Source: Treponema sp. (GTDB lineage: Bacteria > Spirochaetota > Spirochaetia > Treponematales > Breznakiellaceae). From it: a stretch of 46,825 nt of DNA. The number at the start of each line of letters is the position of its first letter. Position 1 is the stretch's first letter. Under the pieces are notes generated by a model, which worked only from the letters and a program-made list of their open reading frames with translations, ran no database searches and was not told the origin of the DNA. Below, one piece after another: positions 4,098 to 46,825 of the stretch. The stretch spans positions 1 to 46,825 of the forward strand of contig WQSQ01000008.1 in assembly GCA_009787775.1 (NCBI GenBank), read 5' to 3'. A program made the translations under genes and the position numbers.

Positions 4098-4126
4098 TTG
4101 ACGCGCTGTTAAAAAGCGGATAACAT
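4098..4126 (+). promoter_or_regulatory. Promoter of the sirtuin gene
   Basis: TTGACG (4098-4103), a 17-nt spacer and TAACAT (4121-4126). The start codon follows 11 nt after the -10 box, so the predicted 5' leader is about 5 nt. No Shine-Dalgarno is present. Confidence 0.55.
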
Positions 4127-4919: not shown

Positions 4920-6422
4920 TTAGCCGCAATCTGTCAGGCGGGCAAAGGCTTTTTCTATTCTTTTCAGTGAACATTCTTCTCCAAGCAGGCGAAGTGATCC
5001 GAAAAGCGGAGGGCTTACGCGGCTTCCTGTAATTGCGACACGCAGAGGCATCATCAGGTCTCCAAGCTTAATTTCTCTCTTTTCCGCTTCTGCTTTTATA
5101 AAACTCTCAGATTGTTCATCATTAATCGCTTGTGCCAGATATTTCACAATCTCTTTTCCGATTTGTAAAAGCTCTATTGTTTTTTCAAGATCGCATTTTT
5201 TAGGGATAAACTCTTCTTTTGCCGGAACATCTGGCTCTTTAAACAAGTATGCAATCTTCTCCGGTACTTCGCTCAAAAACACAAGTCTCTCTTTTACTAA
5301 TGACATCGAAGCAAGAAAAATCTTTCTTTGCTGCTCCGTAGGACTCTCTCCTGCGAAAAGTCCCTTTTCAATCGCGTACGGTAAACAAAGCCGCGCCAGC
5401 ACTTCATTACTTTTCATTCTAATGTACTGGCCGTTGTACCATTCCAGTTTTTTATAATCAAACACAGCAGGTGCCTTGTTCAGTTTTTTTATACTAAAGT
5501 GCTTCGCGAGCTCGTCAAGTGTGTATATTTCCGGATGCTTTGCATCCAGGCTTTCTTCATAGGAGGCGCCCAATAGCGCGATGTAATTAAGCAGCGCTTC
5601 GGGAAGATATCCCTGTTTCGCAAATTCATCAATGCTTGTGGCCCCGTGCCGTTTGGATAATTTTTTTCCGTCCTGACCCATCACCATCGGAAGGTGGCAA
5701 AACTCAGGTGGTGTCCAGCCAAAAGCGCGGTACATGATTATATGCAGAGGAGTGGAAGCAAGCCATTCCTGTGCGCGAAGAACGTGGGTCACTTCCATTA
5801 AATGATCATCAACAACATTCGCAAGGTGATAAGTCGGGAAGCCGTCTGATTTTAACAGCACAGGATCGGGATTGATATCATCGTTCAGCCATTCAATATC
5901 GCCAAGCAGTTGGTCCTGAAATATTGTTTTTTCTCCAAGAGGGATTTTAAGCCTGACTGTGCAGCTTTCTTCTGCGGCTCTTATCGCAGCTTTATTTGGC
6001 TCGATACTTCTGCAAATACGGTCATAACCTGTCTCCGATGAGCGCTCCGATTCCCTCTTTTTTCGAACATCTTCTATTCTTTCCGCCGAACAGAAACAAT
6101 AATAAGCGTGACCCTTTTCAAGCAGTTCCTGCGCATATTTTTTATATAATTTCGTGCGTTCAGATTGAATATACGGACCAAACGACCCGCCGATGTCAGG
6201 CCCCTCATCCCATTTAAATCCCAGCCAGTTAAATGTATCGTAAAGGTTTTTTACATAACTTTTGTCAAAGCGGGTTCTGTCGGTATCTTCCAGCCGCAGG
6301 ATAAACTTCCCTTCTTCTGTATTAAAGGAACGCGCAAACAGGAAATTAAAAAGGGCGGTACGTATTCCGCCGATATGCTGAAGGCCGGTCGGAGAAGGTG
6401 CGTAGCGTACTCGTATTTTCAT
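4920..6422 (-). CDS. gltX: Glutamyl-tRNA synthetase
   Basis: The 500-residue protein starts MKIRVRYAPSPTGLQHIGG, with the class I HIGH-like motif within the first 20 residues, and has the KLSKRHG (KMSKS) loop in the middle, then the C-terminal anticodon-binding helices. It charges tRNA-Glu (possibly tRNA-Gln as well) in the cytoplasm. A longer frame reaching 6488 exists, but the family start is the Met just before KIRVRYAPSP, and a promoter (ATGACA, 17 nt, TACACT) ends 7 nt before that ATG, so the upstream codons cannot be translated from it. No Shine-Dalgarno is present, so a leaderless mRNA is predicted. Confidence 0.96.
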   Translation of the reverse strand: MKIRVRYAPSPTGLQHIGGIRTALFNFLFARSFNTEEGKFILRLEDTDRTRFDKSYVKNLYDTFNWLGFKWDEGPDIGGSFGPYIQSERTKLYKKYAQELLEKGHAYYCFCSAERIEDVRKKRESERSSETGYDRICRSIEPNKAAIRAAEESCTVRLKIPLGEKTIFQDQLLGDIEWLNDDINPDPVLLKSDGFPTYHLANVVDDHLMEVTHVLRAQEWLASTPLHIIMYRAFGWTPPEFCHLPMVMGQDGKKLSKRHGATSIDEFAKQGYLPEALLNYIALLGASYEESLDAKHPEIYTLDELAKHFSIKKLNKAPAVFDYKKLEWYNGQYIRMKSNEVLARLCLPYAIEKGLFAGESPTEQQRKIFLASMSLVKERLVFLSEVPEKIAYLFKEPDVPAKEEFIPKKCDLEKTIELLQIGKEIVKYLAQAINDEQSESFIKAEAEKREIKLGDLMMPLRVAITGSRVSPPLFGSLRLLGEECSLKRIEKAFARLTDCG

Positions 6423-6429
6423 AGAAAGC

Positions 6430-6458
6430 AGTGTACCATATAGAATAAATGGTGTCAT
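6430..6458 (-). promoter_or_regulatory. Promoter of gltX, leaderless type
   Basis: On the minus strand ATGACA (6458-6453), a 17-nt spacer and TACACT (6435-6430). Seven bases separate the -10 box from the gltX ATG, placing the predicted transcription start at or next to the start codon. Confidence 0.6.
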
Positions 6459-10168: not shown

Positions 10169-12526
10169 CTATACTATTTCCATTAAATAATCGCTTTGCC
10201 AGTCAACAACCGCGCTGCCGCCTTCGCTTAAGCGTCCAAAGAGAACTTCATCTACAAAAAAGCTCTTGATTTTATCTTCAATGAGCCGCCCGGCGTTTCT
10301 TGCGCCGAACTCACGGCTGTAGCCGTCTTCTGCCAGCTTGTCCACGCATGATCCCGTAACAGTAAGGGTAACGTTCTTTCCCGCAAGCTGCGCTGTAAAG
10401 GTATCAAGTTCTTTTCGAACAATTGAAACCATGATGTCGCGTGAAAGATGCCCGAATCGCACCACTGCGTCAAGCCGATTACGGAACTCAGGCGTAAAGA
10501 TCTTTTCAATAGCGTCTGTTACCGCTCTGTCGTCCTGAACCCGATCTCCGAAACCGATTAACCCTTTGCCGATTTCTCTTGCTCCGGCATTGCTCGTCAT
10601 GATTAAAATTACATTGCGGCAATCCGCCTTGCGTCCCTGATTGTCGGTTATAGTCGCGTAATCCATTATCTGAAGAAGTATATTAAAAATATCCGGATGA
10701 GCTTTTTCAATTTCGTCCAGCAAAACCACTGCATGCGGCTGTTTGCGGATTGCGTCTGTAAGCTGCCCTCCGTCGTCGTAACCGACATAACCGGGAGATG
10801 AGCCGATAAGACGCGAGACAGTATACTTTTCCTGATATTCGCTCATGTCGAAACGCAGCATCGCGACGCCGAGAATATTGGCAAGCTGACGCGCGAGTTC
10901 TGTCTTTCCTACTCCTGTAGGGCCCGCGAAAAGGAAGTTTGCGACAGGTTTTCCGTCCGCCCTGAATCCCGCTCTGGATCGTTTAACCGCTTTAACAACA
11001 GCAGCAATAGCGTCATCCTGTCCGAAGACACGCTCTTTAAGCCTTTTTTCCAGTTCCTTAAGCTTGTCTTTTTCGCTTTCACCGACAGATCTTTGCGGTA
11101 TCCGCGCGATCTTTGAAATAACTGTTTCGATAACAGGCAGGCTGATTTCTATTTTTTTAATTTGCGCGTCCTGTACTGTAGAAGAATCCTGTTTCTCTTC
11201 CGCGGACACGGCTTCATTTGCCGTCATGCTGTCCGCGGCTGTTTCTTTTCTTACTGATTCGTCCGTTGTCTCTTTCTTGTACGCTTCAATCCGCGCATAC
11301 GCGCCGGCTTCATCAATAACATCAATCGCTTTATCGGGAAGGCGGCGCTCTGTGATGAATTGCGCGGAAAGACGCACAGCGGTTTCTACAACTTCGTCGC
11401 TGTAAAGAACATTGTGGTAATCCTCGTACCGGCTTTTTACTCCCTTTAGGATGTCAATTGCTGTTTCTTCGGATGGTTCATTTATATCGATTTTCTGAAA
11501 CCTTCGCGAGAGCGCCCTGTCTTTTTCAAAAAACTTATTATATTCTTCGTGCGTAGTCGAGCCTATGCAGCGAAGCTTGCCGGAAGCGAGAGCGGGTTTA
11601 AGCAGATTTGACGCATCCAATGCACTGCCTGAAACAGAACCCGCTCCCACTATAGTGTGAATCTCGTCAATAAAAAGAATGACTTTTTCTTTCTTGAGCA
11701 GTTCTTCAATAACGCGTTTGATTCTCTCTTCAAAATCACCGCGGTATTTTGTTCCCGCTACAAGAGCACCCATATCCAGGGATAAAATGCTGAAATCTCG
11801 GAGAATCGGCGGCACCTTGCCCGCTGTGATTCTCTGCGCAAGGCCTTCTGTTATCGCTGTCTTTCCTACGCCTGAATCTCCGACATGAATGGGGTTATTT
11901 TTCAGCCTGCGGCAGAGCACCTGTACCGTACGATCAAGTTCGTCTTCCCTGCCGATAACAGGCTCAAGTTTATATTCACGCGCAAGAACTGTAATATCTA
12001 CAGCGTAACGATCCAGCGCGGTTTTCTTTCCTGTCTTTTTCTGGGTATCAATTTCCTCTTCAGTGCCTGCGTACTTGCCGCCTTTCTCCGTTTCCGGGAG
12101 AGCGTCATTCCCGTAACTGTGGGACAGCACCTGCAGCAGCTCAAGCCGGTTGATTCCTGCCTTGCGCAGATAATAGCCGCTGTAGCATCTTTCTTCGTCA
12201 TAAAGGGAGACAAGAATGTCCGCAACATCGATCATATCTTTCTGCGCGGACCTGCAGTGAATCAAAGCACGCTCTATTATATTGTGAAAACCTACGGTTT
12301 TTGTCGGTTCTCCGGACGCAATCGGCATTTTCTGCTTAAAAAAGTTTTCCATCCCGTGTTTTAGCTGTTCCAAATCGGCTCCGCACGAGAAAAGCACCCC
12401 CTGTACCTCGTCAAAAGCCAGCGCTGCAAACAGAATATGCTCCGGCGTTAGGTACTCGTGGCTGCGAATCTTGGCTTCATTGTATGCGGCATCAATTATT
12501 GCCTGTACATGTCCGGAAACTCTCAT
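10169..12526 (-). CDS. clpA: ATP-dependent Clp protease ATP-binding subunit ClpA
   Basis: The 785-residue protein has an N-terminal Clp-N domain (about 1-145, starting SGHVQAIIDAAY and HEYLTPEHIL), a first AAA+ domain with GDSGVGKT at 216-223 and ILFIDEIHTIVG, and a second with GPTGVGKT near 535-542 and VVLLDEIEKAHPD. It unfolds substrates for ClpP and receives N-degron substrates from ClpS. A charged insert of about 40 residues (415-457) between the two AAA+ domains is variable-looking. No middle domain of the ClpB type is present, which with ClpS upstream decides ClpA over ClpB/ClpC. No Shine-Dalgarno: TATAAT ends 8 nt before the ATG. Confidence 0.95.
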   Translation of the reverse strand: MRVSGHVQAIIDAAYNEAKIRSHEYLTPEHILFAALAFDEVQGVLFSCGADLEQLKHGMENFFKQKMPIASGEPTKTVGFHNIIERALIHCRSAQKDMIDVADILVSLYDEERCYSGYYLRKAGINRLELLQVLSHSYGNDALPETEKGGKYAGTEEEIDTQKKTGKKTALDRYAVDITVLAREYKLEPVIGREDELDRTVQVLCRRLKNNPIHVGDSGVGKTAITEGLAQRITAGKVPPILRDFSILSLDMGALVAGTKYRGDFEERIKRVIEELLKKEKVILFIDEIHTIVGAGSVSGSALDASNLLKPALASGKLRCIGSTTHEEYNKFFEKDRALSRRFQKIDINEPSEETAIDILKGVKSRYEDYHNVLYSDEVVETAVRLSAQFITERRLPDKAIDVIDEAGAYARIEAYKKETTDESVRKETAADSMTANEAVSAEEKQDSSTVQDAQIKKIEISLPVIETVISKIARIPQRSVGESEKDKLKELEKRLKERVFGQDDAIAAVVKAVKRSRAGFRADGKPVANFLFAGPTGVGKTELARQLANILGVAMLRFDMSEYQEKYTVSRLIGSSPGYVGYDDGGQLTDAIRKQPHAVVLLDEIEKAHPDIFNILLQIMDYATITDNQGRKADCRNVILIMTSNAGAREIGKGLIGFGDRVQDDRAVTDAIEKIFTPEFRNRLDAVVRFGHLSRDIMVSIVRKELDTFTAQLAGKNVTLTVTGSCVDKLAEDGYSREFGARNAGRLIEDKIKSFFVDEVLFGRLSEGGSAVVDWQSDYLMEIV

Positions 12527-12534
12527 TATATTTA

Positions 12535-12540
12535 ATTATA
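12535..12540 (-). promoter_or_regulatory. Extended -10 promoter of clpA
   Basis: A perfect TATAAT with an upstream TGT (extended -10, TGnTATAAT) lies on the minus strand eight bases before the clpA ATG. The -35 region is weak (TTTACA only 13 nt away or TTTCTT at 17 nt). It predicts a leaderless or one-base-leader clpA transcript, independent of clpS. Confidence 0.55.
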
Positions 12541-12652
12541 ACACAATTGGCAGTGTAAAGAAAGATAATTGAGACTGTGCTATAAACACAGCTCTTCGGT
12601 TTGAAAACTTTATAACAGTTTCAATTTTAATTCGGTATCAGATAAGCGCATC

Positions 12653-12958
12653 TCAGACTTTTTCTACAATACATTTTAACGGGAAATTATTTTCCTTTGC
12701 TGCTGTATGCACTTGTTCTGTTTTGGTTAATGCGATGTCCCAGGTAAAAACCCCGACCAGTCCCTTGCCTTTTTTATGAACATCAAGCATTATCCTGCTT
12801 GCTTCTTCGATGCTTTTATGGAAAATGGCCATTAAAATTTCAACAACAAACTCCATTGTTGTATAATGATCGTTAAGAAGAATCACCTTGAATTGTTCCG
12901 GCTCCTTTACTCTGTCGTCAATCTTGGATGCCGGTTTATTTTTGGTTCGTATTCCCAC
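12653..12958 (-). CDS. clpS: ClpS adaptor
   Basis: The 101-residue protein has the ClpS core FKVILLNDHYTTMEFVVEIL and the IMLDVHKKGKGLVG helix that supply the pocket binding destabilising N-terminal residues (Asn-Asp of LLND and the His of DVHKKG). It hands N-degron substrates to ClpA, encoded 126 bp downstream, with aat after that. The start is GTG; TTGACC, 17 nt, TAAGAT ends 6 nt before this GTG and there is no Shine-Dalgarno, making it one of the clearest predicted leaderless genes here. Confidence 0.95.
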   Translation of the reverse strand: MGIRTKNKPASKIDDRVKEPEQFKVILLNDHYTTMEFVVEILMAIFHKSIEEASRIMLDVHKKGKGLVGVFTWDIALTKTEQVHTAAKENNFPLKCIVEKV

Positions 12959-12964
12959 AAGACT

Positions 12965-12993
12965 ATCTTATGAAATCGGCGCACGATGGTCAA
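12965..12993 (-). promoter_or_regulatory. Promoter of clpS, leaderless type
   Basis: TTGACC (12993-12988), exactly 17 nt, TAAGAT (12970-12965), then AGTCTT and the GTG start. The predicted transcription start coincides with the start codon. Confidence 0.65.
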
Positions 12994-15137: not shown

Positions 15138-15166
15138 TTGCTTATGATATCTGTTTGGATTATCTT
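15138..15166 (+). promoter_or_regulatory. Probable promoter of the XPB-like helicase operon
   Basis: TTGCTT (15138-15143), 17-nt spacer, TATCTT (15161-15166), with the ATG 11 nt further on. No Shine-Dalgarno is visible, so a leader of about 5 nt is predicted. The -10 is weaker than in the other promoters of this class. Confidence 0.4.
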
Positions 15167-15177
15167 TATTGTATAGT

Positions 15178-16908
15178 ATGAAAAATTCTACAAAGACTAC
15201 GGTGAATGTCAATACATCCGGCACCCGGGCATTAATTGTTCAAAGCGATAAAACCCTGCTTCTGGATGTCCATTGTGAAAACGCGGAAGAAACAAGACAG
15301 GCAATAATACCGTTTGCAGAGCTGGAAAAGTCGCCTGAACATGTTCATACATATCGAATAACGCCTATTTCTCTGTGGAACGCTGCAAGTGCAGGCCTTA
15401 CCCCGCAGGATGTTATAAATACTCTTAAAGAATACAGCCGCTACGAGATACCGCCGGGGATTATCGAGGGATTTTCCCTTGTAATGTCCCGTTACGGAAA
15501 AATCAAAATGACTGCGCAGGATAAAAAAAACGACAGTCAGGATGACAGGGAGGAAAGGCTTATCCTGCGGATTGATGATAAGATAATACAGCTTGAAATA
15601 GGGGAAATGAAAGCGTTAAAAAAACATCTTGTTAAAACTTCGGACGGGTTTTCCCTTTCGATGCTCGACAGGGGGACTGTCAAACGTGAGTTAATACGAA
15701 CCGGCTGGCCTGTACAGGATCACGCTCCGTTTGTTAAGGGCGAAGATCTGGAAATTAATTTACGTACTAACTGCCTTTCCGGAAGGCAGTTTACGTTGCG
15801 GGATTATCAGATAACAGCGGCGCGTTCTGTCATTGGCTCGGGAGGTGCAGGTTCGGGTTACGGCATTGTAGTGCTTCCCTGCGGTTCCGGAAAAACAATT
15901 GTCGGCATGCTGATAATGTCCATGCTTAAAACAAATACGCTTATCCTTACAACAAATGTAGCGGCGGTGCATCAATGGATAGAAGAACTTTTGGATAAAA
16001 CGACTCTTTTAAGAGAACAAATTGCAGAGTATTCAGGGGACACCAAAACAATTGCGCCTGTAACTGTCGTCACATATCAGATAATTTCCTGGAGACCTGA
16101 CAAAAATGGTGATTTTCCGCACTTTAAACTTTTCCGCGAAAGGCCGTGGGGGCTTGTCATCTACGATGAAGTTCATATGCTTCCTGCGCCTGTATTTCGC
16201 GTAACGGCGGAGCTTCAGGCGATTAGGCGGCTTGGGCTTACTGCGACGCTTATCCGCGAAGACGGAGAAGAGGACGCAGTTTTCAGCCTTGTCGGCCCCA
16301 AGCGCTATGATGTACCCTGGAAGGTTCTTGAGAATCAGGGCTGGATTGCCGAGGCTCTCTGTACGGAAATAAGGCTGGATTTGCCGCAGAATTTAAAAAT
16401 ACCGTATGCAACGGCATCGCCGAGAGACAAGTACAGAATAGCCGCGGAAAATCCTTTAAAGGAAAATGCAGTAATACAACTGATCGAAAACCACAGAGAA
16501 GATCAAATTTTGGTTATCGGTCAGTATCTGACGCAGCTCAATTCTCTTGCCAGGCTTTTAAAAGCGCCTCTTATCACGGGGAAAACTCCGAATCATGAAA
16601 GGGATCGAATTTACCGCAGTTTCAAAAACAGGGAAGTGCGTGTTATTGTCGTGTCAAAAGTAGCCAATTTTGCCATTGATCTTCCCGATGCTTCCATGGC
16701 GGTGCAGGTTTCAGGTTCTTTCGGTTCGCGCCAGGAAGAAGCGCAAAGGCTGGGACGGATTTTAAGACCGAAAGGCAAAAACAACGCATGGTTTTTTTCA
16801 CTGGTGTCGGGCTATACAGTAGAAGAAGAATTTGCAGCTAACCGCCAGAAATTTCTGACGGAACAGGGCTATAAATATTCGATTCAGCGATGGATGGATT
16901 GCAAATGA
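15178..16908 (+). CDS. XPB/Rad25-like DNA helicase
   Basis: The 576-residue protein has an N-terminal domain of about 190 residues, then an SF2 motor: GRQFTLRDYQ, PCGSGKTIVGMLIM (Walker A), IYDEVHML (DEVH box), LGLTATLIREDG (the XPB-specific motif III region) and EEAQRLGRILRPKG (motif VI). This is the bacterial form of ERCC3/XPB, a 3'-5' DNA translocase. Bacterial XPB proteins occur in spirochaetes and actinobacteria; their role in repair is not settled. TTG at 15169 is possible, but ATG at 15178 is favoured by family starts. Its TGA overlaps the ATG of the next gene (ATGA), so the two products are probably made together. Confidence 0.92.
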   Translation: MKNSTKTTVNVNTSGTRALIVQSDKTLLLDVHCENAEETRQAIIPFAELEKSPEHVHTYRITPISLWNAASAGLTPQDVINTLKEYSRYEIPPGIIEGFSLVMSRYGKIKMTAQDKKNDSQDDREERLILRIDDKIIQLEIGEMKALKKHLVKTSDGFSLSMLDRGTVKRELIRTGWPVQDHAPFVKGEDLEINLRTNCLSGRQFTLRDYQITAARSVIGSGGAGSGYGIVVLPCGSGKTIVGMLIMSMLKTNTLILTTNVAAVHQWIEELLDKTTLLREQIAEYSGDTKTIAPVTVVTYQIISWRPDKNGDFPHFKLFRERPWGLVIYDEVHMLPAPVFRVTAELQAIRRLGLTATLIREDGEEDAVFSLVGPKRYDVPWKVLENQGWIAEALCTEIRLDLPQNLKIPYATASPRDKYRIAAENPLKENAVIQLIENHREDQILVIGQYLTQLNSLARLLKAPLITGKTPNHERDRIYRSFKNREVRVIVVSKVANFAIDLPDASMAVQVSGSFGSRQEEAQRLGRILRPKGKNNAWFFSLVSGYTVEEEFAANRQKFLTEQGYKYSIQRWMDCK

Positions 16909-19061
16909 AGAAAGATATTTTCCGTACTGTAGAATTCTGGAAATCCGCCGTAATGACAATGCCGGATAGTTCTTTCTTTGAATTGATGCGAAGCGTATTC
17001 GGAAAAATTAAAACGCCTTTTAATAAACAGCAACTTTTAAACGATTTGGAAACATTTTTACTTCGTAATGATATTCAGAAAACAATTGTTTCGTATATTG
17101 ATGAAACTGACGCTAAAATAATCGCAGCAGCTGCTCTCTACTGCGAACCTTTTCCTGAACAGCTTGGAAAATTTTTCTCTGATGAGTATAGTTACGCGCA
17201 GCTTCAGGATATAATCGTGAATCTGGAAGAACGCTTTATTTTATATCGGTTCAGGGAATATACCGCAGTTACACAGAAACACAGCAGCTCTTTATCCGGA
17301 AAACCGCATTACAGCAGCCGCCTTGCCCTTAACCCGGTCTTAAAATCCCTGCTGCTGCCAATCACATCAGATACATCCGCTCTTTTTCCGGTGATGCGCG
17401 AATGTAAAACATCATCTGCTTTCGGAACGCAAAAGATATTTTTTAGCGATCTTGTGCTTGCTTCGCTGTTTTCTTTTATTTCAAAATGGGATTCTTTTTT
17501 CAAGTCAGAAGGCATTATACGAAAACGAATTATTGAAGAAGGCAAAAGAATATTTCCAGGAATTGATTTGGAGAATATTCTTGGTGCTTTACAGGTGCTT
17601 GGTTTGCTTTATACTGACGGCAGCAGGCTTGCTCACGACAGAAAATGTGTTAATGAATTCAGTCAGCTTTTGCCGCATGAACGTATAGAATATATTGCTG
17701 CTGCTTTATTGGTTTACGGAGAATCACAGCATCCTGCGGAAATACTTCCTCCGCTCTTCCGTAGTAAAATACGCAATATAGTAAATATAATACACAGTTT
17801 CTTAAACCAGCTAAAAGAAAAGTCATTTTACCCTGAAAAAACATTAAAAAGAATGATTGAAATACTTATTGCGCATACGGATACAAACATTGTATGCGAG
17901 AAACTGTTCGGAGTTTTGGAAAAAACATGTCTTATAGAAAAATCTGCGCATAAAATATTTTTTTCTGGCTCGATTCTGATTAATAAAAAAAATATCGTTG
18001 ATTCGGTAATAACTATAGATTCAGGATCATCAATTCTTGTATATCCTGAAATAGAATTTTCTGATGCTGTTAAACTGGCGTTCATATTGAATGTCTGCGA
18101 AACAGGATCAGTTCCGGGAAGCACTGTTGTTCGTTTTGAACTTGACAAGGATTCCGCAGTCCGTTCCTTTAATAATAATATAAGCGCTGATGAAATAATT
18201 GAATTATTAAACAGGCTTTCCGGAATACGTCTTTCGAACGGCGGCAATGCGTGGGACACGCTGATTTGGAACCTTAAAGATTGGGAAAAACGTTTTCATG
18301 AGGTTTCTTTAAGAAGGGGAGTGATCTTAAAGCTTTCGGAAGATCGTGTTTTTCTGACAGAGACACATCCGCTTTCACGTTTAATCATTGAAACTCTTGC
18401 TCCGGGTATTTATCTGCTAAATGAAGACTCAATGCATGAGGCAATATACACCCTGCATAATGCCGGAATAGATATAATCGCATGTATGAAAAACAATGCT
18501 AACAGCAATGCGCCCGGAAGCGAAGAAAAGGAAAGTTCTGCGGCAGCTTTGGGACATTTTTCTCCGCCGGAATCAAATGCAATTCTTTCGGACAGCGAAT
18601 ATGAATCCGTTAATACAGTTCCGGACAGGATGTTTTCAGATAATCTGACAGCCGACTTTCGCACGATACTCGAAAAAATGCAGATGGGCGATGCTGAAAA
18701 AAACGAATTGGCTGCAAGAATTGACAGACGGCTTATACTGTGCGAAACACAGTTAAGGGAAGCAAATATTCGCTATGAAAAACTTGAAGCCCGCCATATG
18801 GATTATGCAGGAAAACAGATTATCGCAAAACAGGCAATATCGCAAAAATCACCTGTTGAGATTATTTTACCGGAAAAAGGAAAAGACAAACAAATCTTCG
18901 GGATTCCTCTTGCGCTGGAAAAAGATGAAAAAGACATATATCTTGTCATTGACATCATGTCCTCATCAGAAAATAAAGGCGAAGCTAACTCTGTAAAACG
19001 CATACCGCTTGCAAAAGTAAGTCTTTTGCGCAGAATTAAAAAATCAATATTTGAAACCTGA
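16905..19061 (+). CDS. Large partner protein of XPB-like helicase
   Basis: The 718-residue protein overlaps the helicase stop by an ATGA. The N-terminal 150 residues (MKKDIFRTVEFWKSAVM, then winged-helix-like segments ending SRLALNPVLKSLLLP) and the middle part with HPLSRLIIETLAPGIYLLNEDS resemble the helicase-associated/XPB N-terminal-like domain proteins found beside bacterial XPB genes. The last 150 residues are predicted helical, with a possible coiled coil (ENEL-like ARIDRRLILCETQLREANI), and end in a small beta domain (DIYLVIDIMSSSENKGEA). No nuclease motif was recognised. Similarity to the archaeal XPB partner Bax1 is by position only. Confidence 0.75.
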   Translation: MKKDIFRTVEFWKSAVMTMPDSSFFELMRSVFGKIKTPFNKQQLLNDLETFLLRNDIQKTIVSYIDETDAKIIAAAALYCEPFPEQLGKFFSDEYSYAQLQDIIVNLEERFILYRFREYTAVTQKHSSSLSGKPHYSSRLALNPVLKSLLLPITSDTSALFPVMRECKTSSAFGTQKIFFSDLVLASLFSFISKWDSFFKSEGIIRKRIIEEGKRIFPGIDLENILGALQVLGLLYTDGSRLAHDRKCVNEFSQLLPHERIEYIAAALLVYGESQHPAEILPPLFRSKIRNIVNIIHSFLNQLKEKSFYPEKTLKRMIEILIAHTDTNIVCEKLFGVLEKTCLIEKSAHKIFFSGSILINKKNIVDSVITIDSGSSILVYPEIEFSDAVKLAFILNVCETGSVPGSTVVRFELDKDSAVRSFNNNISADEIIELLNRLSGIRLSNGGNAWDTLIWNLKDWEKRFHEVSLRRGVILKLSEDRVFLTETHPLSRLIIETLAPGIYLLNEDSMHEAIYTLHNAGIDIIACMKNNANSNAPGSEEKESSAAALGHFSPPESNAILSDSEYESVNTVPDRMFSDNLTADFRTILEKMQMGDAEKNELAARIDRRLILCETQLREANIRYEKLEARHMDYAGKQIIAKQAISQKSPVEIILPEKGKDKQIFGIPLALEKDEKDIYLVIDIMSSSENKGEANSVKRIPLAKVSLLRRIKKSIFET

Positions 19062-24090: not shown

Positions 24091-24753
24091 TTATCTGAAA
24101 AAATGGAATTTTCCGAATTTATGGAGTTTGCCGTTAGAACTTTTTCTTATGTCTTCCAGCGATTTGAATATATAAGATGCGAAAGCCGCTTCGTTGCCGG
24201 CGTCTGTCGTGTAGAACCCCATCGTTGTATACGGTTCATTGCCTGCGGCTGCAAGAAGTCCGTTTGCAAAAGCACGGAACGACGAGAGCGCCGAAGGCCC
24301 GAGCATGTCGACAGTATCATCCTTTCCTGAACTCGGGATATCGGGATATACAAGCGCCATGGTTCCGTGTTTGCGTATTCTGAACAGAACAGCCAATTCC
24401 TTTACAAGGAAAAACCATCCTTTAATTTGGTCGTTAATCATCATGTCGACATCAGACAGGGAAAGTTCCGCCGCGCTGCTTCGGATTGAAGGAGGTGAGC
24501 AAATCAGAATAGCTTCACCAATGTGTTCAAGCCGGTTTTCCGCAGCGATTGCCAGCGTCCGCGCCGATATTGGACTCGACGGATTCCACTCCAGAGGAAG
24601 CCGTCCTGTTTCCTGAGACTGATTTTTCGATGCACCGGAAATTCTGTTCGGTATTATGGCAGAAACATACTGTTCCACTCTTCTTATAGTCTCAGTTTCA
24701 ATTGCCCGGCTGAGAGCGCAATCATTACCTGCTATAAGGATACCCCTTGTCAT
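24091..24753 (-). CDS. SDR-like (Rossmann-fold) conserved protein
   Basis: The 220-residue protein starts MTRGILIAGNDCALSRAI, a degenerate nucleotide-binding turn, and has DVDMMINDQIKGWFFLVKEL then HGTMALVYPDIPSS and SALSSFRAFANGLLA. The order resembles short-chain dehydrogenases, in which the NVxG-type helix is followed by a serine strand and a YxxxK helix, but the Tyr-Lys pair is not preserved (FRAFANG), so it is probably not an active oxidoreductase. Function unknown. The promoter (TTGATA, 17 nt, TACACT) ends 6 nt before the ATG. Confidence 0.65.
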   Translation of the reverse strand: MTRGILIAGNDCALSRAIETETIRRVEQYVSAIIPNRISGASKNQSQETGRLPLEWNPSSPISARTLAIAAENRLEHIGEAILICSPPSIRSSAAELSLSDVDMMINDQIKGWFFLVKELAVLFRIRKHGTMALVYPDIPSSGKDDTVDMLGPSALSSFRAFANGLLAAAGNEPYTTMGFYTTDAGNEAAFASYIFKSLEDIRKSSNGKLHKFGKFHFFR

Positions 24754-24759
24754 ACAATC

Positions 24760-24788
24760 AGTGTATATTTATATTTAGTTTCTATCAA
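24760..24788 (-). promoter_or_regulatory. Promoter of the SDR-like gene, leaderless type
   Basis: TTGATA (24788-24783), 17 nt, TACACT (24765-24760), then GATTGT and the ATG. It is back to back with the ymdB promoter, the two -35 boxes being only 6 bp apart, so one bound protein could affect both. Confidence 0.65.
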
Positions 24789-24794
24789 TACCAA

Positions 24795-24823
24795 GTGACA
24801 ATCGTTTTATTACTTGTTATATT
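24795..24823 (+). promoter_or_regulatory. Promoter of ymdB, leaderless type
   Basis: GTGACA (24795-24800), 17 nt, TATATT (24818-24823), then TTTTAT and the ATG at 24830. The predicted transcription start falls at the start codon; no Shine-Dalgarno is present. Confidence 0.6.
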
Positions 24824-24829
24824 TTTTAT

Positions 24830-25678
24830 ATGAATCTAGTAAAAGCAGCCATGATTGGTGACGTAGTGGGATCTTTCGGTCTGGAAACACTCGAAGCCAG
24901 ATTGCCTGCCCTGATTAAGGATCGCAGTATCAGTTTTGTTACTGTTAACGGAGAAAATGCCGCGCAGGGTTTTGGCATGACAGAGAGCGATTACAGGCGC
25001 ATCATCGCGGCGGGAGCTGATGTAGTTACTTCCGGCAATCATGTGTGGGAAAAACGCGAATTCTGGACAATACTGGAAACCGAGAAAAACATGCTGCGCC
25101 CTGCGAATTACTCCTCAGGTTCGCAGTGTAGCTTTAATGTTGCAGGAAAAGGGTTCATTAGTTTAAACAAGAAAGGAACCATCTGGACAGTAATAAACCT
25201 TCAGGGGCGTGAGTTTATGAACCCCATCGACTGCCCTTTTAAATGTTTTGACTATATATTTGGTTTAGTTAATGGAGATAAGAAAGATACTCATTCTTTA
25301 TCATTGGACAGCAGCCCTTCTGCCGCTTTAAGTATTGTTTTGGTTGACTTTCATGCCGAATCCAGCCGTGAAAAAGAGGCGCTTGGCTATTTTGCCGACG
25401 GCCGCGCCGCGGTTATTGCCGGAACGCATACTCATGTTCAGACCGCTGATGAACGAATACTGCCTGGAGGCAGCGCATACATTACAGACCTCGGTATGAC
25501 CGGAAATACAGACAGTGTAATTGGAATGGATCCGCAAATTTGCCTGGAGCGCGTCCGCAAACAGGTACTGTATCACATGGAAACGGCTTTACCGAAAGGT
25601 CCGGGGCAAATGCAGGGGATAATCGCGGAGATAGACGCTGATACAGGAAGGGTAGTTTCGATTGAGCGAATAAAATAA
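24830..25678 (+). CDS. ymdB: YmdB-like cyclic-nucleotide phosphodiesterase
   Basis: The 282-residue protein matches the YmdB/TIGR00282 family: IGDVVGSFG near the start, TVNGENAAQGFGMT, VTSGNHVWEKRE, MLRPANYSSG, VDFHAESSREKEALGYFADGRAAVIAGTHTHVQTADERILPGGSAYITDLGMTG in pieces in the usual order. These supply the Asp, Asn and His ligands of a dimetal site. Family members hydrolyse 2',3'-cyclic nucleotides and affect RNA processing and biofilm switching in Bacillus. It often sits beside rny; that gene is not present here. Divergent from the SDR-like gene. Confidence 0.95.
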   Translation: MNLVKAAMIGDVVGSFGLETLEARLPALIKDRSISFVTVNGENAAQGFGMTESDYRRIIAAGADVVTSGNHVWEKREFWTILETEKNMLRPANYSSGSQCSFNVAGKGFISLNKKGTIWTVINLQGREFMNPIDCPFKCFDYIFGLVNGDKKDTHSLSLDSSPSAALSIVLVDFHAESSREKEALGYFADGRAAVIAGTHTHVQTADERILPGGSAYITDLGMTGNTDSVIGMDPQICLERVRKQVLYHMETALPKGPGQMQGIIAEIDADTGRVVSIERIK

Positions 25679-26668: not shown

Positions 26669-27442
26669 TTACAATCCTGTAGGAATATCAATAAATTCAG
26701 CATCAATGCCAAGCCCGGAAATACAGTGACGCATAACGGCCTGAACTCCCCAGACTTCGGTACTATAGTGTCCGCCTGAAATCATGTTTAATTTTTCTTC
26801 AAGGCATTTATGGTATATGCTGTGCCTGCTTTCGCCTGTTACAAACAAATCAATCCCTTCTTCGATTGCTTCGTTCGCGTTATCAGCAGCGCCGCCTGAA
26901 ACGACGGCCGCGTTCGCGCATTCGCTTTTCCCAAACGGGAAAACGCTTAAAGGCGGCCTGTTAACAAAACTGATTTTCTTTACAGCATCATCAATCTTTA
27001 CAGGTTTTGGAAATGTTCCCTTATAGCCGATCTTGCGCCCATGATATGAGCCAAAAGGCTGGATATTCTCCAATCCCAGAAGCTGCGCAAGAACTGCGTT
27101 ATTTCCAAGTACTGGATGCTGATCGAGAGGCAGGTGAACGCCATAAAGGCAAATATTGTTATCCAGAAGAAACTTGATCCGCCGCCTGAGATTCCCGGCT
27201 ACTCTTAGAGGTGTTCCCCAAAAAAGCCCGTGATGAACAAAGAGCATACCAGCTCCCATAACCGCAGCCTGTTCAAATGTTTCAAGGGCGGCATCTACTC
27301 CAAATGCAATTTTTCGGACTGCGCTGCCGTCATTATCGATCTGGATTCCGTTTTGGGAATCATCAATGGAAGAAAATCCTTCGATATCCAGAACGCTTTT
27401 AAAAAAGGCATCAAGCTGAGCTGTTGTCATTTCTTTACTCAT
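26669..27442 (-). CDS. NIF3/YqfO-type dinuclear metal-centre protein
   Basis: The 257-residue protein has the NIF3 family blocks DDSQNGIQIDN, GVDAALETFEQA, FVHHGLFWG (metal-binding His pair), GVHLPLDQHPVLGNNA, VVSGGAADNANEAIEEGIDLFVTGE in the usual order, and GGHYSTEVWGVQAV near the end. Members form toroidal hexamers with a dimetal site; although annotated GTP cyclohydrolase I type 2, the function is uncertain. The start is MSKEM or the next Met (27430); neither has a strong ribosome site. Confidence 0.92.
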   Translation of the reverse strand: MSKEMTTAQLDAFFKSVLDIEGFSSIDDSQNGIQIDNDGSAVRKIAFGVDAALETFEQAAVMGAGMLFVHHGLFWGTPLRVAGNLRRRIKFLLDNNICLYGVHLPLDQHPVLGNNAVLAQLLGLENIQPFGSYHGRKIGYKGTFPKPVKIDDAVKKISFVNRPPLSVFPFGKSECANAAVVSGGAADNANEAIEEGIDLFVTGESRHSIYHKCLEEKLNMISGGHYSTEVWGVQAVMRHCISGLGIDAEFIDIPTGL

Positions 27443-27500
27443 AAAGGCAGTATACAGTAATAAAAAATGAATGTCATGTTACAAGAGACAATTAATATTG

Positions 27501-31579: not shown

Positions 31580-31608
31580 ATTGTAACATGTTATTGGCAT
31601 GTATGCAA
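31580..31608 (-). promoter_or_regulatory. Promoter of the GH10-like gene
   Basis: TTGCAT (31608-31603), 17 nt, TACAAT (31585-31580), then 13 nt to the ATG. The leader would be about 6 nt. No Shine-Dalgarno is present. Confidence 0.5.
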
Positions 31609-35100: not shown

Positions 35101-36312
35101 TTAAAACTCTTTTATCTCGGGCATCCAGAAGCTTCTTAGTTCACTGTAATTAATCCTGTTGAAAAGCGGCTCAATATCGGCGTTTTCTTTTATTATTTCA
35201 AAGAGGAAAGAAGAGAAAGTCCTGTGCTTGTCCATTACATATTCGGCGTAGCGTTTCTTAGCTTCCTTTGGGTCTTCGCTGCCGTTTCTGCATTCCTGAT
35301 AAAAACCAGCGGCGGTTTTGCAAAGCGCTTTTACAGCGTTCCTGAAACCAATCCATTCCGAGGTAATTTCGTCAGTTCTTTTGCGGATTTCCGGCCACGC
35401 GACAATCGCGTCATCGATGCTTCCCTGCTTGATGGCGGAAAAGAGACGCTCGTCAGAAAAATGATCCTCGCCTTTCAGGTAAAAAAGGCTTCTGTAATGA
35501 TCTGTTTTAACCTTTATGCGGTTAAAATTGGCATCCTGAACAACAAAGCCCTCCCGGTCGTCAGTATCTACAGCCTGGCAGTACGCGATTATGGCATCAA
35601 GGTTTTTAAGCGGAAGAATCTGCGGCGTGGAAAAAGACAGACCGAAGCTGTCCGCGGTCCATTCGGGAGTATGTTCCTGTCCTTCGCTGTCGCGGCAGCC
35701 CAAAAGGTATAATTTTGTTTCCCTGTACGGGACAATTATCCTGTTGTAGGGAGAAACAAGCTCAAACATGAACGTCCAGCCTTTCGGCAGGCGCTTTATT
35801 TCGTCTCTGCGTCCGCGCAGCGCGTAATCGCGCAGGCCCGCGAAAGTATACGGCGGCGGAAGGTTTTCATCGTTATCTGTACGGATAAACTCCGGCACTT
35901 CGGCGTTTACGTCAAAACTGCCGTTTGTCGTCCAGAGATCGTTTCCGTCATCTTCCTTGAGGAGCTTAAGGAGAGAACCGTCAAGTTTGTCCCTTACATA
36001 CAGTTTGCTGTTCCAGTCGATGGGGTCGGCGCCGGCTTCGCCTGAATTCATGAACTTGAAAAAAGGCAGAAGGCAGGGTTTTACCGTTCCGGCTTCCTCA
36101 TTAATGTCGTAAACGGAACCGCGGCAGCAGCGGACTATAGGATTTGTAAAGTCCGATTCAAACTGGCTGTACCTGAACATGACAAGATTCGCCCGCCGGG
36201 GATGACGCTTTACCTTTACGGCGTAAGGAGCCCCGGAAAGTTCTTCCTCAAAATTGTTCAGGTTCTTTTTGAGGAAATTGGTTAAATATTCCCAGCTGTC
36301 ATATTGTCCCAT
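35101..36312 (-). CDS. T4 Rnl1-like RNA ligase
   Basis: The 403-residue protein has nucleotidyltransferase ligase motifs: the adenylated lysine Lys109 in DKLDGSLLK (motif I), FMFELVSPYNRIIV (motif IIIa region), DREGFVVQD (motif IV) and RIKVKTDHY (motif V). The FELVSPYNRIIV block and helical C-terminal third match the T4 Rnl1 family, which repairs broken tRNA anticodon loops in phage T4. Rnl1-type enzymes in bacteria are thought to act in RNA repair. No Shine-Dalgarno: the promoter ends 6 nt before the ATG. An RNase H-fold gene follows in frame. Confidence 0.9.
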   Translation of the reverse strand: MGQYDSWEYLTNFLKKNLNNFEEELSGAPYAVKVKRHPRRANLVMFRYSQFESDFTNPIVRCCRGSVYDINEEAGTVKPCLLPFFKFMNSGEAGADPIDWNSKLYVRDKLDGSLLKLLKEDDGNDLWTTNGSFDVNAEVPEFIRTDNDENLPPPYTFAGLRDYALRGRRDEIKRLPKGWTFMFELVSPYNRIIVPYRETKLYLLGCRDSEGQEHTPEWTADSFGLSFSTPQILPLKNLDAIIAYCQAVDTDDREGFVVQDANFNRIKVKTDHYRSLFYLKGEDHFSDERLFSAIKQGSIDDAIVAWPEIRKRTDEITSEWIGFRNAVKALCKTAAGFYQECRNGSEDPKEAKKRYAEYVMDKHRTFSSFLFEIIKENADIEPLFNRINYSELRSFWMPEIKEF

Positions 36313-36318
36313 ATATCA

Positions 36319-36348
36319 AATATAGTGTTTCTTCAGCGCTCCGCGCAA
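36319..36348 (-). promoter_or_regulatory. Promoter of the RNA ligase gene, leaderless type
   Basis: TTGCGC (36348-36343), 18 nt, TATATT (36324-36319), TGATAT, then the ATG. Predicted transcription start at the start codon. Confidence 0.5.
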
Positions 36349-46536: not shown

Positions 46537-46565
46537 TTGTAAAAATATGCAAATCCCCGTAAACT
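46537..46565 (+). promoter_or_regulatory. Promoter of the nuoE-like gene, leaderless type
   Basis: TTGTAA (46537-46542), 17 nt, TAAACT (46560-46565), AAAATA, then the ATG. No Shine-Dalgarno, so the transcript is predicted to start at the start codon. Confidence 0.6.
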
Positions 46566-46571
46566 AAAATA

Positions 46572-46825
46572 ATGCAAAGTCTTAACAAAAATCAAATGCT
46601 TAAAATAATGGAAAGATACGGCAATGATCCTCAGCAGTTAATAGCTGTCTTGCTGGATATTCAGGCCGCGTCGGGAAAATTCTGCGTTGAACAGCATTGG
46701 GCTGAGCTTACCTCGGAAGTTTTGGGTGTTCCGCTGTCGAAAATTTATGATGTACTGACTTTTTATTCCATGTTTAAAACAGAGCCGCACGGCGAGTTTA
46801 TCATCGAAATTTGCCGCAGCACTCC
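46572..46825 (+). CDS. NuoE/HydA-type [2Fe-2S] subunit, 5' part only
   Basis: Eighty-four codons are present before the window ends. LIAVLLDIQAASGKFCVEQHWAELTSEVLGVPLSKIYDVLTFYSMFKTEPHG in pieces is the helical N-terminus of the thioredoxin-like ferredoxin family (NuoE, HoxE, gamma subunit of electron-bifurcating hydrogenases). The first cluster Cys appears in EICRST at the edge. In anaerobes it usually begins a hydrogenase or NADH-oxidising operon, which would lie to the right. Confidence 0.88.
   Translation, partial: MQSLNKNQMLKIMERYGNDPQQLIAVLLDIQAASGKFCVEQHWAELTSEVLGVPLSKIYDVLTFYSMFKTEPHGEFIIEICRST

Follow-up and report, generated by a model that had tools for sequence, protein, structure and literature searches.

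Sigma-70-type promoters close to start codons point to leaderless genes in a Treponema-type spirochaete

Genes and close promoters in the window

The window, the whole 46,825-nt stretch of DNA that was analysed, is contig C8 of a 2.04-Mb, 109-contig assembly, which is 71% complete and yielded no 16S gene. The host is a spirochaete. Its nearest ClpA loci (best 80 of 552 related loci) belong to Treponema sp. MAGs, and these were also the best ClpA matches among named genomes within that set, with identities of up to 84%. The isolate codes of these MAGs presumably point to termite-gut samples. Several genes of the window lack a Shine-Dalgarno (SD) site and carry a -10 box close to the start codon, an arrangement referred to hereafter as leaderless-type. 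In the list below, spacing is the number of nucleotides between the -35 and -10 boxes, and gap is the number between the -10 box and the start codon.

4098-4103, plus strand: sirtuin -35 box TTGACG
4121-4126, plus strand: sirtuin -10 box TAACAT, gap 11, predicted leader about 4-5 nt (SIR2, E 4.8e-47)
4920-6422, minus strand: gltX coding sequence (tRNA-synt_1c, Pfam PF00749, E 1.3e-95), start at 6422, no SD
6430-6435, minus strand: gltX -10 box TACACT, 7 nt before ATG
6453-6458, minus strand: gltX -35 box ATGACA, spacing 17
10169-12526, minus strand: clpA coding sequence, no SD; identity supported by family search
12535-12540, minus strand: clpA -10 box TATAAT, 8 nt before ATG; same in the nearest relative, G010
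12558-12563, minus strand: weak clpA -35 box TTTCTT, spacing 17 nt
12653-12958, minus strand: clpS coding sequence (Pfam PF02617, E 2.6e-33), GTG start, no SD
12965-12970, minus strand: clpS -10 box TAAGAT, spacing 17, 6 nt before GTG
12988-12993, minus strand: clpS -35 box TTGACC; same hexamer and same 17 + 6 nt spacings in G010
15138-15143, plus strand: XPB-like helicase -35 box TTGCTT
15161-15166, plus strand: XPB-like helicase -10 box TATCTT, gap 11
24091-24753, minus strand: gene for a 220-aa protein (SDR-like in the initial annotation), no SD
24760-24765, minus strand: -10 box TACACT of the gene at 24753, 6 nt before ATG
24783-24788, minus strand: -35 box TTGATA of the gene at 24753, spacing 17
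24795-24800, plus strand: ymdB -35 box GTGACA, spacing 17
24818-24823, plus strand: ymdB -10 box TATATT, 6 nt before ATG
24830-25678, plus strand: ymdB coding sequence (Pfam PF13277, E 4.9e-86), no SD
26669-27442, minus strand: NIF3/DUF34 coding sequence (Pfam PF01784, E 1.9e-55), no SD
27449-27454, minus strand: NIF3 -10 box TATACT, 6 nt before ATG
27472-27477, minus strand: NIF3 -35 box ATGACA
31580-31585, minus strand: -10 box TACAAT of a GH10-like gene (family search supports GH10-like), gap 13, predicted leader about 6-7 nt
31603-31608, minus strand: GH10-like -35 box TTGCAT
35101-36312, minus strand: RNA ligase coding sequence (RNA_lig_T4_1, Pfam PF09511, E 7e-10), no SD
36319-36324, minus strand: RNA ligase -10 box TATATT, 6 nt before ATG
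36343-36348, minus strand: weak RNA ligase -35 box TTGCGC, spacing 18 nt
46537-46542, plus strand: nuoE -35 box TTGTAA, spacing 17
46560-46565, plus strand: nuoE -10 box TAAACT, 6 nt before ATG
46572-46825, plus strand: nuoE-like reading frame (name from the initial annotation), running off the window, no SD

The initial annotation had proposed -35/-10 promoters for six genes (clpS, gltX, the gene at 24753, ymdB, RNA ligase and nuoE-like). All six lie where it had placed them, with the -10 box 6-7 nt before the start and a spacing of 17-18 nt, and the clpA TATAAT was likewise present 8 nt upstream of its ATG (gap 8). Leaders of 5-6 nt had been suggested for the sirtuin, XPB-like and GH10-like genes; their gaps of 11, 11 and 13 correspond to leaders of about 4-7 nt. 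The supposed lack of a ribosome site was borne out by an SD test that was negative for every gene named. The NIF3 gene (start at 27442) is a clear further case absent from that annotation, reading ATGACA-17-TATACT-6-ATG. Taken singly, some of the promoters score weakly: of 1,616 ATGs in the window, 28% do at least as well as that of the RNA ligase gene and 9% at least as well as that of clpS.

The 220-aa protein gave no Pfam or NCBIfam match. The leaderless-type promoters of its gene and of the divergent ymdB stand back to back in the 76 bp between the two (24753-24830), and this architecture is kept on both sides in the relatives L001 and L004. Among the orthologues found, 4 of 4 were leaderless-type for the 220-aa gene and 2 of 3 for ymdB. 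Elsewhere in the window, the gltX -35 box (6453-6458) overlaps the ATG at 6457 of a divergent M18 aminopeptidase; this start is doubtful, and the gene may begin further in. Within 15178-19061, an XPB/ERCC3-like helicase (PF16203, E 7.3e-47) precedes a 723-aa protein for which Pfam gave no match at E 0.001. The RNA ligase at 35101-36312 places a T4-type RNA ligase domain (PF09511) in a spirochaete.

Close -10 boxes in a larger sample of the genome

The sample consisted of the window and 40 stretches of the same assembly (838,768 bp, about 40% of the assembly). The gene caller chose start codons by codon type and coding potential and made no use of the sequence upstream. It returned 609 genes, eight of which were dropped because a stretch ended within the 60 bases upstream of them. 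Of the 601 usable genes, 269 had an SD-like core and 332 had none, so that among the latter the lack of an SD is a matter of definition. In 200 kb of E. coli K-12, 63 genes were found of 69 annotated genes compared, and since only 48 of these 63 starts were exact, some starts in the sample must be wrong.

The motif TANNNT occurred at gaps 6-7 in 63 of the 332 non-SD genes (38 at gap 6 and 25 at gap 7). Gaps 9-29 averaged 12.8 each, so that a pair of gaps would be expected to hold about 25.5. By this strict count the excess amounts to about 37 genes, or about 6% of genes. The distance plot split by SD, which the initial annotation had put forward as a check that could refute it, has its peak at 6-7 nt in this 40% or so of the assembly. 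Its further claim that SD genes do not show the spacing also held, with TANNNT at gaps 6-7 in 4 of 269 (4 at gap 6, 0 at gap 7), a contrast with the non-SD genes that is partly built in because the SD site takes up the same bases.

The strongest evidence is a -35 spike at 17 nt, which is independent of the -10-based selection. When the 63 genes were chosen by the -10 box alone, at least 4 of 6 matches to TTGACA were found at 17 nt in 20 of the 63, as compared with 0-6 of 63 at the other spacings between 8 and 30 nt. The mean number of matches was 2.83 at 17 nt and 1.10-1.90 at the others. The 60 genes with TANNNT at gaps 0-4 and the 76 with it at gaps 10-14 showed no 17-nt spike.

A mixture model was run in which the matrices for the -10 and -35 boxes took the E. 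coli consensus as their starting point and gaps of 0-25 and spacings of 15-19 were left free. It placed 88.9 of the 332 non-SD genes in gaps 5-8 (12.3 at gap 5, 46.9 at gap 6, 19.0 at gap 7 and 10.8 at gap 8), and spacing 17 held 68% of the weight. Longer gaps received fewer genes (4.4 at gap 9, 6.5 at 10, 8.2 at 11, 8.4 at 13 and 0.1-3.2 at each of gaps 14-25). Gaps 0-4 received 2.1 genes in total, with gaps 2-4 empty, a drop that would be expected if a gap shorter than 5 left the start codon outside the transcript.

With the learned matrices, 20 dinucleotide shuffles gave a mean of 5.8 and a maximum of 13.6 genes of 332, SD genes gave 1.4 of 269, and internal ATGs gave 3.6 of 511 in frame and 18.9 of 504 out of frame. 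Non-SD genes of E. coli K-12 gave 0.6 of 63 (a number equal by coincidence to that of the E. coli genes found above). When the matrices were left free, shuffles gave a mean of 28.5 and a maximum of 57.7 genes in gaps 5-8, at log-likelihoods of at most 111 as compared with 216 for the real genes, and E. coli gave 8.8 of 63 with a peak at gap 3. The model's figure of 15% is therefore soft, because free matrices find many genes in shuffles and some in E. coli; the leaderless-type share is estimated at about 6% (strict excess) to about 15% (model) of genes.

Leaderless-type genes were rarely found close behind another gene. Only 6 of 76 lay within 25 nt behind a same-strand gene, as compared with 106 of 258 SD genes (p = 7e-9); operons were judged here by distance only, and the caller missed some neighbours, clpS for example. 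Among genes apparently heading a transcription unit, 61 of 335 were leaderless-type at a posterior above 0.5. The start codons of 85 leaderless-type genes were 82 ATG, 2 GTG and 1 TTG, and other non-SD genes had TTG in 14 of 209. A pyrimidine stood at -1 in 56 of the 85, in 148 of 269 SD genes and in 110 of the 209 other non-SD genes. Unusually low 5' structure was considered as a feature of the class and rejected, the folding of the first 40 nt showing no significant difference from SD genes (p = 0.66) or from other non-SD genes.

Genus, phylum and single orthologues

Whole genomes were scanned for the pattern TTGAC, 17-19 nt, TANNNT, gap, ATG, and matches at gap 6-7 were compared with those at control gaps. 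The excess in the host's own assembly was modest, with 26 matches at gap 6-7 as compared with 15 and 8 at the control gaps 10-11 and 3-4. In the genus, 36 of 36 genomes had more matches at gap 6-7 than at 10-11 (1,516 vs 537 overall). The ratio exceeded 1 in 139 of 150 genomes sampled from the phylum, significantly in 71 at a 1% false discovery rate, and the other 79 showed no significant excess. The systematic class suspected by the initial annotation in a spirochaete thus spans the genus (36/36) and much of the phylum (71/150), with transcript starts deduced from geometry. The highest counts were found in G173, a genome of another genus of the same family (182 vs 35 and 24), and in family f42 (178 and 163 vs 44-46), and the complete genome of Breznakiella homolactica strain RmG30 had the same excess (58 vs 18). 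Families f7, f28 and f37 showed no excess. Relative to background, matches stood at 0.72 in f7, whose five genomes measure 1.0-1.8 Mb and resemble Borrelia in size, at 0.69 in the single genome of f28 and at 0.98 in the three of f37.

With the matrices learned from the host, the model assigned 21.5% of 172 genes in G173 and 12.4% of 306 genes in G030, which belongs to the same genus as the host. Three pools of ClpA loci gave 20.2% of 194, 9.6% of 240 and 14.6% of 231 genes; because all these pools surround clpA, a small set of genes, clpS and gltX included, recurs in them, and they are not genome-wide samples.

The gltX promoter is widespread in the genus. TANNNT stood at gap 5-7 in 16 of the 17 scored genomes, the host's own included, and the remaining upstream DNA differs between many of them. 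The single miss was L196 (G011), and L198 was counted as leaderless-type with an SD test that was also positive. Of 22 genomes, those left unscored were G002 and G017 (no N-terminus), G020 (no start), G004 (paralogue only) and G005 (no locus). Outside the genus, 29 of 32 genomes were scored; those left out were L177, which lacked the N-terminus, L189, for which there was no start, and L191, a paralogue. Of the 29, six had the architecture (families f3, f4, f8, f9, f10 and f13), 21 had an SD and two had neither, the distant match L190 being kept among the latter. Both an SD and a close -10 box are missing from gltX of G173 (L162), where the upstream bases, judged by eye, resemble a tRNA gene's 3' end. 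One in-frame TAG lies within the gltX match of G016 (L200).

A narrower distribution was found for clpA. The host and G010 share its promoter, with TATAAT at gap 8 and no SD. Another 26 relatives were scored, of which 24 had an SD and two, with doubtful starts, had none, and an SD was present in all 78 of a further set of relative loci. Between alignment ends, clpS and clpA lie 6-13 nt apart in other families, 21-149 nt apart in the genus and 129 nt apart here. We infer that clpA acquired a promoter of its own in this lineage; alignment of its upstream DNA with six relatives revealed no simple deletion of an SD site.

In clpS, comparison with G010 showed that the -35 box and all spacings are kept and that the -10 box is kept but for one base, with most of the six bases before the start changed and the start codon too (GTG or ATG). 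A hand count found TANNNT at gap 5-8 in 38 of 74 clpS loci of relatives. Across 13 leaderless-type genes, identity to G010 was 144/169 in the box windows and 199/299 over the remainder of the 36 nt before the start (p = 8e-6); the corresponding values for 16 SD genes, 132/208 and 208/368, did not differ significantly (p = 0.11). The windows were chosen after the profile had been seen, and rounded values were used. With clpA set aside, 33 aligned-start pairs of the host's leaderless-type genes comprised 19 leaderless-type, 9 SD and 5 neither; the clpA pairs alone comprised 68 SD and 1 neither.

Transcription starts and initiation of translation

The promoter geometry, the excess over controls, the conservation and the rarity close behind same-strand genes are direct observations. 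It is highly probable, as far as sequence can tell, that sigma-70-type promoters set the start of transcription on the start codon of these genes, and that their mRNAs are leaderless or nearly so. The genes would be transcribed from ordinary promoters of this type, with a TTGACA-like box, 17 nt and a TATAAT-like box, and the usual transcription start, 7-8 nt past the -10 box, would land on the first base of the start codon. Because the two would coincide, the transcript would have neither a 5' leader nor an SD, and the ribosome would have to begin at a 5'-terminal AUG (or GUG). Leaderless mRNAs elsewhere are initiated by 70S ribosomes, and these would probably use the 5'-terminal start codon here. 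Such initiation would form a second route beside the SD-led one, mainly for genes heading their own transcription unit. The exact 5' ends and translation from a 5'-terminal start codon we infer from the same geometry, and some genes, with gaps of 8-13, would carry leaders of about 1-7 nt rather than none.

If RNA generally began slightly upstream, the class would have very short leaders of 1-7 nt and would not be truly leaderless. The model genes at gaps 8-11 and 13, which exceed the level at gaps 14-25, agree with this, as do gap 8 of clpA and the gaps of 11-13 of the sirtuin, XPB-like and GH10-like genes. The peak, however, is at gap 6, which canonically puts the transcription start on the first base of the codon, and falls off on both sides, with gaps 2-4 empty; as a general account, very short leaders are unlikely.

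Chance hexamers in A+T-rich, SD-less regions that hold no promoter and act by way of low structure or of ribosomal protein S1 are a very improbable source of the pattern, and we reject this account. TANNNT is indeed common at every distance (12.8 of 332 genes per gap at gaps 9-29), and a passage in PMC5397173 holds that A+T bias at about -20 to -10 is not simply attributable to leaderless promoters. Such hexamers would not, however, account for the -35 spike at 17 nt and its absence at control gaps 0-4 and 10-14, for the empty gaps 2-4, or for the low counts in shuffles, internal ATGs and E. coli. Both boxes are moreover conserved, with more divergence between and after them, and the folding energy of the first 40 nt shows no difference from SD genes.

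Misassignment of start codons, with the true start downstream and the promoter-adjacent ATG incidental, is scarcely credible and was also rejected: the caller is imperfect, as the inexact E. coli starts and the doubtful M18 start at 6457 illustrate, but homologous starts of gltX, clpS, clpA, ymdB and the gene at 24753 agree in most, if not all, relatives, and the conserved-looking RVRYAPSPTG of gltX begins at residue 4, which leaves hardly any room for a downstream start.

Transcription from the start codon itself, the reading we prefer, has precedents. In Leptospira interrogans, likewise a spirochaete, dRNA-seq and 5' RACE are reported to place the start of 430-450 genes at most 10 nt from the start codon, and of 170-184 exactly at it (PMC5243855, 2017); those transcripts were mapped on RNA, whereas ours are predicted from sequence in another lineage. 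That report describes no E. coli-like promoter consensus for Leptospira, in contrast to the clear TTGACA-17-TATAAT pattern seen here. It also quotes 505 leaderless mRNAs in Mycobacterium tuberculosis and 1174 in Deinococcus deserti, organisms of other phyla in which RNA sequencing found a large minority of genes to be leaderless, as predicted here. Zheng et al. (2011; PMC3160421) list TA-led predicted leaderless genes in 6 of 18 spirochaete genomes, recognized by a TA-like motif some 10 bp upstream of the start codon, which is also the signal seen here. Their shares of 1.8-6.9% of genes stand against about 6% (strict) to 15% (model) in the Treponema-type genome, figures that are not directly comparable because the methods differ. 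Titles and abstract openings, in a search mostly outside the subscription literature, yielded no paper on leaderless genes in Treponema. Leaderless genes as such are already known; the set described here is apparently larger, and wider in the phylum, than earlier predictions.

Taken together, the results may describe an old second route of initiation across spirochaetes, larger in the Treponema-type genus than phylum predictions had it, absent or lost in one small-genome family, and with gltX and clpA switching between SD-led and leaderless over short evolutionary times; we advance this combined picture tentatively, at somewhat short of an even chance. The passage between modes is testable, since gltX and clpA are leaderless-type in some relatives and SD-led in others, and Breznakiella homolactica RmG30 offers a named relative with a complete genome in which 5' ends are directly mappable. 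Gene finders that rely on an SD could misplace such starts. If the reading holds, between about one-sixteenth and one-seventh of this organism's genes, and a comparable fraction of those in its relatives, would start translation without a leader or an SD, and leaderless initiation, known as a minor mode, looks from sequence to be common in many spirochaetes.
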